Source of the DNA: Coralloluteibacterium stylophorae
Lineage (GTDB): Bacteria; Pseudomonadota; Gammaproteobacteria; Xanthomonadales; Xanthomonadaceae
Direction: 5' to 3'
DNA: 64,000 nucleotides
Assembly: GCF_018122625.2 (NCBI RefSeq)
Contig: NZ_JAGQFT020000009.1
Span: forward strand, 62,001-126,000
Below are positions 5,591 through 29,581 of the stretch, one piece after another (within the stretch, counting starts at the first letter, position 1; every line of letters starts with the position of its first letter). Below the pieces are notes generated by a model, which worked only from the letters and a program-made list of their open reading frames with translations, was not told the origin of the DNA and did not search any database. Position numbers and translations under genes: made by a program.

Positions 5591-6345
5591 CAGATGACCT
5601 GGCCTCCCGAGACCTCGATGCGCTGACCGGTGATCCAGCGGTTGGCCGGTCCGAGCAGGCCGGCGATCATCGGACCGATATCGTCGGGCACGCCGACCCG
5701 TCCGAGCGCGATCATGCCGGCGAACTGCGCGTTGAGGTCCGGGATGTCGCGCACGGCGCCGCCGAGGAAGTCGGTCTCGATCGCGCCGGGCGCCACGGTG
5801 TTGACGGTGATGCCGCGACTGCCGAGTTCGCGGGCCAGGCACACGCTGAGGATCTCGACCGCGCCCTTGGCCGCGCAGTAGGCCGAGAAGCCGGGATGGG
5901 TGACGCGGGTCAGCCCCGACGACAGGTTGACGATGCGTCCGCCGTCGGCGAGCAGGGGCAGCAGCGCCTGGGTGAGGAAGAACACGCCCCTGACGTGGAC
6001 GTCGAACAGCGCGTCGAACTGCGCCACCGTCGTCTCCGCGAAGGCGGCCATCTCGCCGTGGCCCGCGTTGTTGACCAGGTGGTCGAAGGTGTCGCGCCCC
6101 CACGCCTCCCGCAGCGTCGCGCCGACCTGCCCGGCGAACGCCGCGAACGTCGGCACGTCGCCGGCGTCCAGCGGCAGGGCGACGGCCCGCCGGCCGAGGG
6201 CCTCGATCTGGCGGACGACCTCGCGCGCCTCGGCTTCGCCGCTGCGGTAGGTCAGGATCACGTCGCCCCCGTTGCGGGCGATGCTCAGGGCGGTGTTGCG
6301 GCCGAGGCCGCGGCTGGCGCCGGTGACGAGAGAGATGGTGGTCAT
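5590..6345 (-). CDS. SDR family NAD(P)-dependent oxidoreductase
   Basis: A 251-aa classical short-chain dehydrogenase. The cofactor motif T-G-A-S-R-G-L-G is at residues 8-15, N-N-A-G at 92-95, catalytic Ser at 142-143, and Y-C-A-A-K (Tyr156, Lys160). The start at 6345 is preceded by an AAGGAG ribosome binding site; an upstream in-frame ATG lacks one. The substrate is unknown. A 26-bp box about 90 bp upstream resembles one next to the AraC-family gene at 10761, so this gene may belong to that regulator's regulon together with the DJ-1/aldehyde dehydrogenase operon. Confidence 0.9.
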   Translation of the reverse strand: MTTISLVTGASRGLGRNTALSIARNGGDVILTYRSGEAEAREVVRQIEALGRRAVALPLDAGDVPTFAAFAGQVGATLREAWGRDTFDHLVNNAGHGEMAAFAETTVAQFDALFDVHVRGVFFLTQALLPLLADGGRIVNLSSGLTRVTHPGFSAYCAAKGAVEILSVCLARELGSRGITVNTVAPGAIETDFLGGAVRDIPDLNAQFAGMIALGRVGVPDDIGPMIAGLLGPANRWITGQRIEVSGGQVI

Positions 6346-21872: not shown

Positions 21873-23114
21873 GTGCACCGGCTTCCGCTCGCCCTCGTCG
21901 AAGCCTTCGTCGCAGTGGCCCGCTGCGGCAACCTGACCCGCGCCGCCGCGGCGATGCACGTCACCGTCAGCGCGCTCAGCCACCGCATGCGCCAGCTCGA
22001 GGAGCGGGTCGGCTGCCGCCTGTTCGTGCGCGGCCCACGCGGGGTGACGCTGACCGCGGACGGGCGCCGCCTGTTCGAGGCGATGGCTGCGCCCCTGGGC
22101 GAGATCGAGCGCGCGTGGCGCGACTTCCGCGTGCGCAGCGGCGATCGACTGACCCTGAGCCTGGTGCCCCTGGTCGCCAGCGGCTGGCTGGTCCCGCGGC
22201 TGCCGGGCTTCGTCGCCAGACACCCCGACATCGGCATCAACCTGCAGTCGACCACCGCCCTGGTCGATTTCGACCGCGAAGACGTCGACGCGGCGCTGCG
22301 CCTGGGCCGCGGCAACTGGCCCGGCCTGCACGCCGAACATCTTTTCGACGAGTGGGCCACGCCGGTAGCGAGCCCGGCACTGCTCGCGCGCACCGGGCCG
22401 CTGAGCGAGGACAACCTCGGCACGGCACCGCTGCTGGGCGATCCCGACACCCGCCCCGACGACCATGCCGAGCACTGGCGTCCGTGGTTCGCGCGCTTCG
22501 GCGGCGAAGCGCCGGCGCACTACGTCGCCAGCTTCGACAACTCCGAGACGCTGCACCAGGCGGCGGTGCAGGGCCTGGGCGTGGCGCTGGGCCGCCTGAC
22601 CCTGGCGCAGCCGCTGGTCGATGCCGGCCTGCTGGTGCGCCTGAGCCGCAAACGGCTGCGCATGAACTACGCGCACTGGCTGGTGTATCCCCCGCGCAGC
22701 CTCGGGCACGCCGGCTTCCTCGCCTTCCGCGCATGGCTGCATGCGCAGCTCGGGCGCGAAGCGCCGCCGCCGCCGTCGAGTGCCGATGCGCTCACGTCGG
22801 CTTGGCGCGGTGCATCTAGATTGGGGCTCTCGGTCCCCAGGAGCGCAGCCATGGCCAACCGCGTCGATCCGCCACAGCCCGAGGACGGTTCCGGCGCCGT
22901 CTCCAACGACCAGGTCGACGACCGCATGCCGTCGGCCTATCTCGCCGGCGCCGGCTACACCGTGCTCGAAGGCGACACCCTCGCCTCGATCGCGCGCGCG
23001 CGCTATGGCGACGAGGCCGCCGCGGACCTCATCCTCGAGGCCAACCGCGAGGTCATCGGCGACCGCGAGACGCTCACGCCCGGGGTGGTCCTGAGCCTGC
23101 CCGAGAGCAGGTGA
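21873..23114 (+). CDS. LysR-family regulator reading in frame into a LysM domain
   Basis: One uninterrupted frame of 413 codons. Residues 1-60 form a LysR-type winged helix (L-T-R-A-A-A-A-M-H-V-T-V-S-A-L-S-H-R); residues 88-300 resemble the GcvA-type periplasmic-binding-like effector domain. After a Pro/Ser-rich linker (about 305-326) the frame continues without a stop into a complete LysM-type protein (327-413). LysR proteins are normally near 300 aa, and a ribosome binding site plus a -10-like box precede the LysM part, so either a stop codon was lost or two overlapping products are made. The start codon is GTG; no ribosome binding site is obvious. A small gene diverges from it. Confidence 0.72.
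   Translation: MHRLPLALVEAFVAVARCGNLTRAAAAMHVTVSALSHRMRQLEERVGCRLFVRGPRGVTLTADGRRLFEAMAAPLGEIERAWRDFRVRSGDRLTLSLVPLVASGWLVPRLPGFVARHPDIGINLQSTTALVDFDREDVDAALRLGRGNWPGLHAEHLFDEWATPVASPALLARTGPLSEDNLGTAPLLGDPDTRPDDHAEHWRPWFARFGGEAPAHYVASFDNSETLHQAAVQGLGVALGRLTLAQPLVDAGLLVRLSRKRLRMNYAHWLVYPPRSLGHAGFLAFRAWLHAQLGREAPPPPSSADALTSAWRGASRLGLSVPRSAAMANRVDPPQPEDGSGAVSNDQVDDRMPSAYLAGAGYTVLEGDTLASIARARYGDEAAADLILEANREVIGDRETLTPGVVLSLPESR
22817..22822 (+). promoter_or_regulatory. -10-like TAGATT within the LysR-LysM junction
   Basis: TAGATT lies 28 bp before the internal ATG at 22851, inside the coding frame, and is followed by an AGGAG ribosome binding site (22839-22843). It supports separate expression of the LysM protein. 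Confidence 0.4.
22851..23114 (+). CDS. Small LysM domain protein (probable internal start)
   Basis: An 87-aa protein whose C-terminal part (about residues 34-85) is a single LysM domain: Y-T-V-L-E-G-D-T-L-A-S-I-A-R-A-R-Y-G-D near its start and L-T-P-G-V-V-L-S-L-P at its end. No signal peptide is seen, so like YgaU-type proteins it may be cytoplasmic. The N-terminus has a conserved-looking D-G-S-G-A-V-S-N-D-Q-V-D-D-R-M-P-S-A-Y-L block. AGGAG lies 8 bp upstream of the ATG. It is in the same frame as the preceding LysR gene, with no stop between them. Confidence 0.65.
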   Translation: MANRVDPPQPEDGSGAVSNDQVDDRMPSAYLAGAGYTVLEGDTLASIARARYGDEAAADLILEANREVIGDRETLTPGVVLSLPESR

Positions 23115-24911: not shown

Positions 24912-25631
24912 TCAGCGCGCCGCGCGCGCGCCCGGCAGGGGCGCCGGCGCGTGCAGGCGCCCGCCCTCGGCCACGTAGCGCTGCAGCGCGAGCCCCTGGT
25001 CCTCCAGGTGCGCGGCCATGACCCGCTGCGCGGCGTCGGGATCGCGTCGCCGGAAGCAGTCCATCAGGATGCGGTGCTCGGCGAGCGAGGCTTCCATGCG
25101 GCCCGGCGCCAGCAGCTGGCGCCCGCGGTGCATCTTCAGGATGCGGCGCAGGTCGCTGGTGGCGCGGATCAGCCAGCGGTTGCCGGACAGGGTCTGCACG
25201 CATTCGTGGAAGCGGTAGTTGCCCGCGTAGTAGGCGGCGATGTCGCCCGCGGCCGCCGCCGCCTCGAGCTCGGCGTGGATCGCCTCGAGCGTCTCCAGGT
25301 CGCCCGCGCCGAGCTTGCGCGCGGCCTCGAAGGCGCAGCGGCCCTCCAGCAGCGCCATCACCGGGAACAGCTCGGCCAGGTCCTCCAGCGAGATCTTGAC
25401 CACGCGGCAGCCGCGGCCCGGTTCCATCTGCACCAGGCCCTCGGCGGCGAGCAGCTTCAGGCTCTCGCGCAGCGGCGTGCGGCTGATGCCGAGCTCCGCG
25501 GCGAGCGCGGGCTCGTCGATCCAGCTGTCGGGCAGAAGCTCGTAGTCGTAGATCTTCTCGCGCAGGCGCTCGGCGACGTCCTGGTAGAGGGCGTTGCGCC
25601 GCTGCGGGAGAAGCTGGGATGCGTCGCTCAT
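24912..25631 (-). CDS. GntR family (FadR/FCD-type) transcriptional regulator
   Basis: A 239-aa regulator with an N-terminal winged helix (about residues 15-80: E-P-A-L-A-A-E-L-G-I-S-R-T-P-L-R-E-S-L) and an all-helical FCD effector domain (about 95-220). FCD domains bind a metal plus small organic acids; the effector here is unknown. It ends next to the aceK stop and is divergent from the lipoprotein/methyltransferase pair, so it may regulate either or a distant target. Confidence 0.9.
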   Translation of the reverse strand: MSDASQLLPQRRNALYQDVAERLREKIYDYELLPDSWIDEPALAAELGISRTPLRESLKLLAAEGLVQMEPGRGCRVVKISLEDLAELFPVMALLEGRCAFEAARKLGAGDLETLEAIHAELEAAAAAGDIAAYYAGNYRFHECVQTLSGNRWLIRATSDLRRILKMHRGRQLLAPGRMEASLAEHRILMDCFRRRDPDAAQRVMAAHLEDQGLALQRYVAEGGRLHAPAPLPGARAAR

Positions 25632-25718
25632 GGCGCGGAGGATTCGCGGCGGAGGCAGGCCTGGCGATCCCGATTATGCGTCGGCCCGGCACGCGCCGGC
25701 ATGTGCGGATGCACATGC

Positions 25719-25724
25719 TAGGCT
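25719..25724 (+). promoter_or_regulatory. -10-like TAGGCT before the first methyltransferase-fold lipoprotein
   Basis: TAGGCT lies 28 bp before the ATG at 25753, in the intergenic region shared with the divergent GntR gene. Confidence 0.4.
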
Positions 25725-25752
25725 CCGGCGCCACCGCCTCCGGGATTCCCGC

Positions 25753-26619
25753 ATGCATCGTCCGCTCGTCGCCTGCGCCGCGCTCGCGCTGCTCGCCGCC
25801 TGCGCCACGCCGGCACCGGAACCTGCCGTGCCCAGCGCCGAGGCGCTGTCGGAGCCGGCGCCGCCGCCGGACCTGGCCAGTCCCGCCGACACCTTCGACG
25901 CGCGCCTCGACGGCGTGCTCGACGGCACCTGGCGCAGCGCCGCCAACCGCGCGCGCGACCCGGCCAGGCACCCGAAGCAGACGCTGGGGTTCTTCGGGCT
26001 GCAGGCGGGACAGACGGTGCTGGAGCTGAGTCCGGGCGGCGGCTGGTACGCCGAGATCCTCGCGCCGCTGATGCGCGGCGACGGCCAGTACGTCGCGCTG
26101 GTGCCCGACGGCGGCGACCGCGGCGAGCGTCTGCGCACGCGCTTCGCCGCGGAGCCCGCGATCTTCGGCCAGCCGCAGGTGCGCACCTTCGACCCTGCGG
26201 CGCCACGCTTCGGTGCCGACGCCAGCGCCGACGTGCTGCTGACCTTCCGCAACGTGCACAACTGGATCGACAACGGCAGCGCCGCGGCCATCTTCGATGC
26301 CGCCCACGCGGTGCTCCGCGAGGGCGGCACCTTCGGCGTGGTCGACCACCGCGCGCGCCCGGGCACGGAAGCGGCGTCCGCCGGCAGCGGCTACGTCACC
26401 GTCGCCCAGGTCGTGGCGCTCGCCGAGGCGGCGGGTTTCCGTCTGGTCGAGGAGAGCGACATCAATGCCAACCCCCGCGACACCACAGAGCATCCCAACG
26501 GGGTGTGGACGCTGCCGCCGACGCTGCGCGTGCCCGACGGCGCCGACGCCGGGCGCTACCGCGCGATCGGCGAGAGCGACCGCATGACCCTGAAGTTCGT
26601 GAAGCCGCAGGCCCCCTGA
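25753..26619 (+). CDS. Lipoprotein with class I methyltransferase fold (paralogue 1)
   Basis: A 288-aa protein. The N-terminus is a lipoprotein signal (hydrophobic core, then L-L-A-A-C with the modified Cys at about 17), so it should be anchored in the envelope. The rest resembles class I SAM methyltransferases of the COG4798 type: motif I is E-L-S-P-G-G-G-W-Y, and V-L-L-T-F-R-N-V-H-N-W and G-V-V-D-H-R follow. Cytoplasmic SAM would not reach it, so the function is unclear. The next gene encodes a close paralogue, 28 bp downstream. Confidence 0.75.
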   Translation: MHRPLVACAALALLAACATPAPEPAVPSAEALSEPAPPPDLASPADTFDARLDGVLDGTWRSAANRARDPARHPKQTLGFFGLQAGQTVLELSPGGGWYAEILAPLMRGDGQYVALVPDGGDRGERLRTRFAAEPAIFGQPQVRTFDPAAPRFGADASADVLLTFRNVHNWIDNGSAAAIFDAAHAVLREGGTFGVVDHRARPGTEAASAGSGYVTVAQVVALAEAAGFRLVEESDINANPRDTTEHPNGVWTLPPTLRVPDGADAGRYRAIGESDRMTLKFVKPQAP

Positions 26620-26647
26620 TCCACCGCCCACCCGACCGGAGAGCGAC

Positions 26648-27553
26648 ATGCGCAACGCCACCCTGAGCCTGACCATCGCCCTGGCGCTCTGCGCCTGCGG
26701 CCGGATCGGTCCGCCGGACGACGCCGACCGCGTCGAGACCGCGGTCGACCAGCCCGCTCCTGCAACCGCCGCGCCCGCACCCGGCGGCACCGCCGACGCC
26801 ATCGCCACGCAGGACCCGCTCGACGCCGCCCTGGCCGGCGACTGGCGCGGCGACACCCGCGCGCGCGACCAGTACCGGCACCCGGCCGAGACGCTGCGCT
26901 TCTTCGGCGTGGAGCCGGACGACACCGTGGTCGAGATCACGCCCGGCGGCGGCTGGTACGCCCGCGTCCTGGCCCCCTACCTGCGCGCCAACGGCCACTA
27001 TGTCGCCGCGGTGGTCGATCCCGAACGCGCCGGCGAGCGCGCCCGCGACTACCAGGCCCGCGCCCGCGACCAGCTGCAGGGGCTGCTGGCCGACACCTCG
27101 GTGTACGGCGAGACCGAGATCGTCGCCTTCGACCCCGCAGCACCGGCATTCGGCGCACCCGGCAGCGCCGACGTGGTGCTGACCTTCCGCAACGTGCACA
27201 ACTGGCGCGGCGGCGGCAACGCCGAGGCGATGTTCCGCGGCTTCTTCGAGGTGCTGAAGCCCGGCGGCGTCCTCGGCGTGGTCGAGCATCGCGCCGCGCA
27301 GGACGTGCCGGACGACGACGGGACCGGCTATGTCGGCGAGGCGCAGGTCGTCGCGCTGGCCGAACAGGCGGGGTTCCGGCTCGACGGGAAGAGCGAGATC
27401 AACGCGAATCCGGCCGATACCCGCGACCACCCGAACGGGGTGTGGACCCTGCCGCCAACCTCGAACCTGCCCGAGGGTGCCGATCCGGCCCCGTTCCAGG
27501 CGATCGGCGAAAGCGACCGCATGACCCTGCGCTTCGTCAAGCCGCAGGCCTGA
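26648..27553 (+). CDS. Lipoprotein with class I methyltransferase fold (paralogue 2)
   Basis: A 301-aa protein paralogous to the preceding gene over most of its length, sharing P-G-G-G-W-Y, L-T-F-R-N-V-H-N-W, P-N-G-V-W-T-L-P-P and I-G-E-S-D-R-M-T-L. It has its own lipobox (L-C-A-C; Cys at about 17) after a short signal, then a Pro/Ala-rich linker. A GGAGAGCGAC sequence precedes the ATG. The tandem duplication with both lipoboxes kept argues that export is functional. Substrate and cofactor are unknown. Confidence 0.75.
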   Translation: MRNATLSLTIALALCACGRIGPPDDADRVETAVDQPAPATAAPAPGGTADAIATQDPLDAALAGDWRGDTRARDQYRHPAETLRFFGVEPDDTVVEITPGGGWYARVLAPYLRANGHYVAAVVDPERAGERARDYQARARDQLQGLLADTSVYGETEIVAFDPAAPAFGAPGSADVVLTFRNVHNWRGGGNAEAMFRGFFEVLKPGGVLGVVEHRAAQDVPDDDGTGYVGEAQVVALAEQAGFRLDGKSEINANPADTRDHPNGVWTLPPTSNLPEGADPAPFQAIGESDRMTLRFVKPQA

Positions 27554-29113: not shown

Positions 29114-29581
29114 ATGACCAATAACAAACTGCTGCTGAGCCTCGCCGTCGCCGCCACCTTCGCGCTTTCGGCGTGCGACCAGCAGAGCACTCAGGCCGAC
29201 GTCGCCGAGGCCCAGCAGGAAGCGCAGGAGAACGTCGCAGAGGCGCGCCAGGACGCGGCCGAGAACGTGGCCGAGGAGCGCGAGGACCTGCGCGACGACA
29301 TGGGCGACCGCGACATGAACGGCCTCGACGGCGAACGCGCCGACGTCGCCGATGCGCAGGCGCAGGCCCAGTACGAGGTCGCCGTCGCCGAGGCCGAGGC
29401 CCAGCACAAGGTCGCCGTGGAGAAGGCGCAGACCATGCCGGAGGGCCCGGAGCGCGAGGCCGCCATCGCCGAGGCCGACGCCGCCCTGGAGAAGGCCAAG
29501 GCCGATGCCGAGGCCGCCCGCGCCGAGGCCGAGGCCAACGCCGAGCAGATGGACGAGAACGCCGACGCCGAGCGGATGTGA
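29114..29581 (+). CDS. Ala/Glu-rich coiled-coil lipoprotein
   Basis: A 155-aa protein with a lipoprotein signal ending L-S-A-C (Cys21). The mature part is almost entirely Ala, Glu, Asp, Gln and Lys in heptad-like patterns (A-E-A-Q-Q-E-A-Q-E-N-V-A-E-A-R-Q), predicting a long coiled coil, interrupted by an Asp/Gly-rich turn (D-D-M-G-D-R-D-M-N-G-L-D-G). It probably spans or lines the periplasm, in the manner of Lpp-like or stress lipoproteins; no family is recognised. AGGAG lies upstream. Tandem hairpins follow. Confidence 0.75.
   Translation: MTNNKLLLSLAVAATFALSACDQQSTQADVAEAQQEAQENVAEARQDAAENVAEEREDLRDDMGDRDMNGLDGERADVADAQAQAQYEVAVAEAEAQHKVAVEKAQTMPEGPEREAAIAEADAALEKAKADAEAARAEAEANAEQMDENADAERM

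Follow-up and report, generated by a model that had tools for sequence, protein, structure and literature searches.

Tandem putative lipoproteins with a predicted class I methyltransferase fold belong to a widespread family bearing export signals

To our knowledge, S-adenosylmethionine (SAM) in bacteria is usually taken to be restricted to the cytoplasm, and the OmpB methyltransferases, FliB and PilD reach it from the cytoplasmic side. A review (PMC10450907) deals with methylation of envelope proteins by the OmpB lysine methyltransferases of Rickettsia, by FliB, which modifies flagellin, and by the prepilin peptidase PilD; these enzymes act on surface proteins, and the review gives SAM as the donor for protein methylation. 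The two adjacent genes described here, designated g1 and g2, differ from these systems in that their products bear their own export signal. They were analyzed within a stretch of 64,000 nucleotides, referred to below as the window.

In structure, g1 and g2 resemble class I SAM-dependent methyltransferases (Pfam Methyltransf_11/12/23/25; 3dh0, 1vl5 (BH2331) and 3bus (RebM)), with which they share the predicted fold, the order of strands and helices, a glycine-rich motif I and the strand-4 motif. They depart from these enzymes in scoring below the Pfam cut-offs, in carrying an export signal with a lipobox, and in an insert between strands 6 and 7. The family to which their relatives belong may correspond to the database entry COG4798, a 'predicted methyltransferase'. 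In the 20 records covered of the 23 plasmid records that contain relatives, these carried the names 'class I SAM-dependent methyltransferase', 'methyltransferase', 'methyltransferase domain-containing protein' or 'conserved hypothetical protein', or no gene was listed. Searches of open-access full text found no published work on this exported family and no paper under the name COG4798; passages of PMC5192318 and PMC10215855 have no bearing on it. The methyltransferase fold and the 'methyltransferase' record names were already known, while the exported family is apparently unstudied.

The features of the locus are as follows.

24912..25631, minus strand: GntR-FCD regulator, divergent from g1 (Pfam PF00392, PF07729)
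25753..26619, plus strand: g1 (288 aa), predicted to be an exported lipoprotein of class I methyltransferase fold
25753..25803, plus strand: g1 predicted lipoprotein signal peptide, lipobox LAAC, through Cys17 (sequence, signal rule, codon-position composition)
26023..26049, plus strand: g1 motif I, E91-x-x-P-G-G-G-W-Y99, expected SAM loop (alignment; strand 88-92 and loop in the model)
26230..26265, plus strand: g1 motif IV region, D160...TFRNVHNW171, expected active-site strand 4 (model)
26566..26592, plus strand: g1 C-terminal family signature IGESDRMTL, residues 272-280 (alignment)
26648..27553, plus strand: g2 (301 aa), predicted to be an exported lipoprotein of class I methyltransferase fold; GGAGA upstream of the start
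26648..26698, plus strand: g2 predicted lipoprotein signal peptide, lipobox LCAC, through Cys17 (sequence, signal rule)
26933..26959, plus strand: g2 motif I, E96-x-x-P-G-G-G-W-Y104 (alignment, model)
27170..27205, plus strand: g2 motif IV region, D175...TFRNVHNW186 (model)
27503..27529, plus strand: g2 C-terminal family signature IGESDRMTL, residues 286-294 (alignment)

Both open reading frames were found where the original prediction had placed them. They lie on the plus strand with a spacing of 28 bases and are probably co-transcribed, and their products are 52-55% identical. Each protein consists of a signal, a variable linker of ∼27 (g1) to ∼40 (g2) residues and then the domain. The signals have a short n-region with an arginine close to the N-terminus, followed by a hydrophobic stretch and a lipobox (L14-A-A-C17 in g1, L14-C-A-C17 in g2); neither contains a twin arginine, and no aspartate stands behind Cys17. 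Under the stricter form of a home-made signal rule g2 was assigned to the Sec type, and under the form that allows cysteine at position -2, as the PROSITE lipoprotein rule permits, g1 and g2 were both lipoproteins. With cysteine allowed there, both proteins have a signal peptide with lipobox and cysteine, and the lipobox claimed for them is borne out. The sole contact with NCBIfam was a match below the cut-off between the g2 signal region and LptM.

The start codons are supported by codon-position composition and by the presence of export signals at the same place in relatives. G+C content at the three codon positions was 0.82/0.68/0.86 in the signal region of g1 and 0.55/0.60/1.00 in that of g2, and the open frame 5' of g1 (25594-25752) had a flat profile of 0.72/0.72/0.72 with no coding signature. 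Relatives were scored with the same crude, home-made rule, which chose start codons in favor of signals, in the control as well, and which gave at least one false call. Among named-genome relatives (L004-L083, the best 80 of 559 confirmed), 80 of 80 had a signal, 32 of them of the lipoprotein class; in a second set of further distinct relatives the figures were 85 of 85 and 31. The second set had contained 89 proteins, from which g1, g2 and two copies of proteins in the first set were removed; these rows do not enter the combined count of 165 and were taken out ahead of both the 167-row tree and the 219-row alignment described below. A Sec or lipoprotein signal was thus called in 165/165 distinct relatives, as against 56/173 neighboring genes treated alike (50 Sec-like and 6 lipoprotein; these genes lie beside relatives at 29 of 30 loci, L188 having given none). 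A further set, from a bacterial family of the same phylum and another class (f196), had signals in 51 of 52 proteins, four of the 52 being already counted in the other sets. Judged from these sequences, export is a trait of the family.

Weakly matching, remote relatives were read at 15 hand-picked loci (18 open reading frames). The rule called a signal in 17 of 18, or 16 of 18 once a false call in L234 was discounted; L234 and L235 are apparently without a signal, and the superfamily therefore seems to include a cytoplasmic branch. An end motif resembling that of the family is retained in L235. These signal-less relatives, the bias of the rule toward starts that yield signals, and the position of the g1 start (25753), which has no clear ribosome-binding site whereas GGAGA precedes that of g2, would each suit a cytoplasmic location for g1 and g2, with the true start downstream and the signal an artefact of an early start codon. 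The original prediction had named such a start as what would overturn it. The signals in every distinct relative, set against the control, and the coding-like composition of both signal regions, with nothing of the kind upstream of g1, make this highly improbable, and a wrong start was rejected as an explanation.

Pfam methyltransferase matches all fell under the curated cut-offs (best scores 22.9 bits for g2, cut-off 30, and 14.6 bits for g1, cut-off 27), and the fold was therefore checked by structure prediction, a check that the original prediction had itself proposed. AlphaFold2 models built with 60 of 82 alignment rows had a mean pLDDT of 82.6 for g2 (176/301 residues at 90 or above) and 84.6 for g1 (171/288), and both showed a class I methyltransferase fold with the element order of class I enzymes. 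The best PDB match was 3dh0 for g2 (VIA-align Z 18.8, rmsd 2.4, 173 aligned) and for g1 (Z 19.1, rmsd 3.0, 176 aligned), and Z was at least 8 for 1000 of 1000 compared chains with either model. The class I methyltransferase-like domain that had been proposed for the two proteins is upheld by these matches to SAM-dependent methyltransferases. Foldseek returned 764 chains at E ≤0.001 for the g2 model, and the best 50 of these were methyltransferases or cyclases of the same fold (SpnF and SpnL, the latter of which we take to be a cyclase of methyltransferase fold). Neither single-sequence nor 60-row profile searches gave a sequence match between the proteins and solved structures. Between strands 6 and 7 the models have an insert, specific to the family and some 40 residues long, that carries NANPxD...GVWTLPP...IGESDRMTL, much of the family signature. 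Block mean pLDDT was 50-69 in g2 residues 251-280 (252-280 correspond to window positions 27401-27487), and part of this stretch (252-270) is almost invariant among relatives; it may be a lid that becomes ordered on a ligand or partner, or an interface.

Conservation was read from an alignment of 219 rows, comprising 217 relatives together with g1 and g2, after four of the 52 f196 rows were dropped as repeats. Fifty-two positions were conserved in at least 95% of the 217 relatives, and g2 kept 52 and g1 51 of them; decay of the two copies is therefore unlikely, and decayed copies were rejected as an explanation on these counts. Many of the 52 are polar (in g2 numbering Arg67, Arg73, Arg77, Asp175, Arg181, His184, His214, Arg215, Asn252, Asn254, Asp257, Glu288, Asp290 and Arg291), and Trp186, GVW, LPP and the C-terminal IGESDRMTL are conserved to the same degree. 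On the alignment, the polar positions form a pattern like that of an active site and unlike that of a degenerate fold. The P-G-G-G-W motif of the original prediction is present in both proteins (g1 94-98, g2 99-103), within a glycine-rich motif I that includes an acidic residue and reads E-x-x-P-G-x-G in both; among the 217 relatives Glu96 (g2 numbering) was found in 211, Pro99 in 216, Gly100 in 216 and Gly102 in 215. The usual first glycine of motif I is mostly threonine, tryptophan or serine in relatives. The acidic residue that ends strand 2 usually holds the ribose of SAM. At this position aspartate or glutamate occurs in 156/217 relatives and aspartate in g2; in g1 the alignment has a gap there and an aspartate nearby.

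The main rival to methyl transfer, possible though rather doubtful, is that the fold has been repurposed, in the envelope, for an enzyme or binding protein with a different ligand, such as a non-SAM adenosyl compound or an anionic metabolite of the envelope. The problem of SAM supply would then disappear; the only moderate retention of the ribose-binding acid, the deviation of motif I at its first glycine and the amount of signature borne by the family-specific insert would fit, the many invariant arginines would suit an anionic ligand, and the structural matches include SpnF, whose title gives it as a [4+2]-cyclase. The near-invariant Glu96, Gly100 and Gly102, however, are difficult to account for if no SAM-like ligand is bound, and a similar end motif recurs in a remote relative that apparently lacks a signal (L235).

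We tentatively prefer, at a little under even confidence, the reading that g1 and g2 are putative active extracytoplasmic SAM-dependent methyltransferases anchored in the outer membrane. It is supported by the predicted fold, the conservation, the broad distribution and the family-wide export signals called by the crude rule; against it stand the moderately kept strand-2 acid, the replaced first glycine of motif I, the low model confidence in the almost invariant stretch 252-270, the failure to find a solved structure among relatives by sequence and the lack of a constant neighboring gene. The proteins would leave the cytoplasm unfolded via Sec, be lipidated on Cys17 and probably be sorted to the inner leaflet of the outer membrane, a destination made probable by the lack of aspartate after Cys17 under a sorting rule that comes from E. 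coli. The domain would refold there and most likely transfer methyl groups from SAM onto an envelope or diffusible substrate. We know of no supply of SAM to the periplasm, which also counts against this reading; leakage, efflux or lysed neighbors could provide it. The paradox pointed out in the original prediction, that of an envelope methyltransferase with a cytoplasmic cofactor, is upheld; SAM is made in the cytoplasm.

One way around this paradox would be for SAM or SAH to be loaded in the cytoplasm and for the protein to be exported folded, delivering the ligand itself. Tat carries folded proteins, often loaded with ligand, and export by this route implies that the protein folds in the cytoplasm, in the presence of SAM. 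Twin-arginine signals do occur in the family. In f196 the gene was detected in 73/80 genomes at E 1e-20, and all of the 30 lipoprotein copies that best matched the query had a twin-arginine motif together with a lipobox; these copies are not a random draw, and their starts (19 ATG, 11 GTG or TTG) were chosen in favor of RR. The partner copy, read at 22 of these 30 loci, had a twin-arginine motif in 6/22 (starts again chosen in favor of RR) and a lipobox in 0/22. The relatives read from Variovorax, Rhizobium and Nostoc also had RR motifs. The RR-x-hydrophobic motif was nevertheless found in only 2/80 proteins of the first set and 7/85 of the second, and among those seven several came from f196; g1 and g2 lack a twin arginine and should pass unfolded through Sec, so that Tat is not a general answer to the paradox. 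A single load would moreover allow a single turnover, and we consider delivery of a preloaded ligand quite improbable.

The f196 copies form an adjacent pair in 35/80 genomes, a count that omits the last search rows (weak, partial matches) and from which contig breaks can hide pairs. At the pair loci (L160-L165 and L191-L220), one copy is soluble-type and the other a twin-arginine lipoprotein. In a quick tree of 167 rows the two kinds of partner fell into separate clades with support of 99 and 88, each comprising seven rows (from six f196 pairs and one f228 pair, whose copies both lack a lipobox by the rule), and the division into soluble and lipoprotein copies is therefore probably old. Pairs were also seen at 3/15 of the hand-picked loci of remote relatives (L225, L226 and L227). 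These recurrent pairs would agree with g1 and g2 acting together, as a heterodimer or as an enzyme with its regulator, which is compatible with the methyltransferase reading. In the window's bacterial family, however, a match was found in 139/149 genomes at E 1e-10 and a close match in 129 at E 1e-30 (own genome included), and adjacent copies occurred in the window's genome only (1/149, contig breaks again being able to hide pairs). A single copy therefore usually suffices, and we regard cooperation between g1 and g2 as unlikely. Among the other genomes of this family, two copies lie 68 kb from each other in G310, and two adjacent pieces in G329 look like one broken gene.

The origin of the pair was evaluated from identities and trees. 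The g1 protein was 62% identical to L115, a relative of another clade, and 52% identical to g2. In a careful tree of 60 rows g1 was unplaced, on a long branch. When g1 was held with the L115-type clade, which was named for this constraint after the tree had been seen, the log-likelihood was 14.6 above that of the free tree (AU p 0.675), whereas holding g1 with g2 lowered it by 5.7 (AU p 0.398) and holding it with L169, the second copy of G310, lowered it by 4.0 (AU p 0.43). Neither placement was rejected; a recent duplication in place is thus not supported, though not disproved, and was dropped as an established fact on the identities and AU tests taken together. On the sequences compared, g1 may be an old paralogue or have arrived by transfer instead of being a copy of g2. 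The original prediction had argued for selection from motifs kept after duplication; the core motifs are kept in both copies, which does point to selection, and it is a recent duplication that lacks support.

Beyond the window's bacterial family, matches were found in 51/274 genomes of its class (46 at 1e-30) and in 49/299 genomes of its phylum (44 at 1e-30), the own genome being included in both. The closest named relatives of g2, among the best 80 of 559 confirmed, were from Luteimonas and other Lysobacteraceae, a set from which records very near the window may be absent. The 23 plasmid records with relatives came from Paraburkholderia, Caballeronia, Variovorax, Indioceanicola and Rhizobium, and from the cyanobacteria Nostoc, Pseudanabaena and Tolypothrix. 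The family is therefore widespread, large, conserved and, by its predicted signals, exported, in Pseudomonadota and Cyanobacteria. In L167 (open reading frame at 5771, reverse strand), a proline/lysine-rich tail, roughly 280 residues long, is joined to a relative; the tail gave no functional clue, and the relative adjoins a second copy.

No constant neighbor across lineages was found beside the relatives' genes at 80 loci, and the neighbors gave no hint of a substrate; aceK stood upstream at 14/80 loci, and a response-regulator/kinase gene occurred at 19-20/80. The divergent GntR-FCD gene at 24912-25631 is a possible regulator of g1 and g2. It had 0 tblastn matches at E 1e-15 in the flanks (up to 6 kb) of 80 relatives, which would suit a joint arrival of this regulator and g1.

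With a family of this kind, of nearly invariant putative active site, either SAM must be within reach beyond the cytoplasm or a common fold has taken on a novel function in the envelope, and methylation in the envelope of bacteria becomes a puzzle that can be put to the test. Pairing of a soluble-type copy with a Tat lipoprotein, recurrent in another class, offers a second handle on the question. It is conceivable, at well short of even confidence, that SAM-dependent methylation outside the cytoplasm is widespread and draws on a periplasmic SAM pool, with some lineages dividing the labor between a soluble copy and a membrane-anchored, twin-arginine copy.

Two other genes in the window were noted. 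The open reading frame at 29114-29581, which had no Pfam match at E 0.001, encodes a small Ala/Glu-rich putative lipoprotein (LSAC) of repeat-like sequence. The LysR-type regulator at 21873-23114 (Pfam) is encoded by a frame that extends ∼115 residues into a LysM-like-looking tail; the LysR and LysM-like parts are separate in both relatives that match the two (L030 and L081), and the frame may represent a fusion or a lost stop codon.
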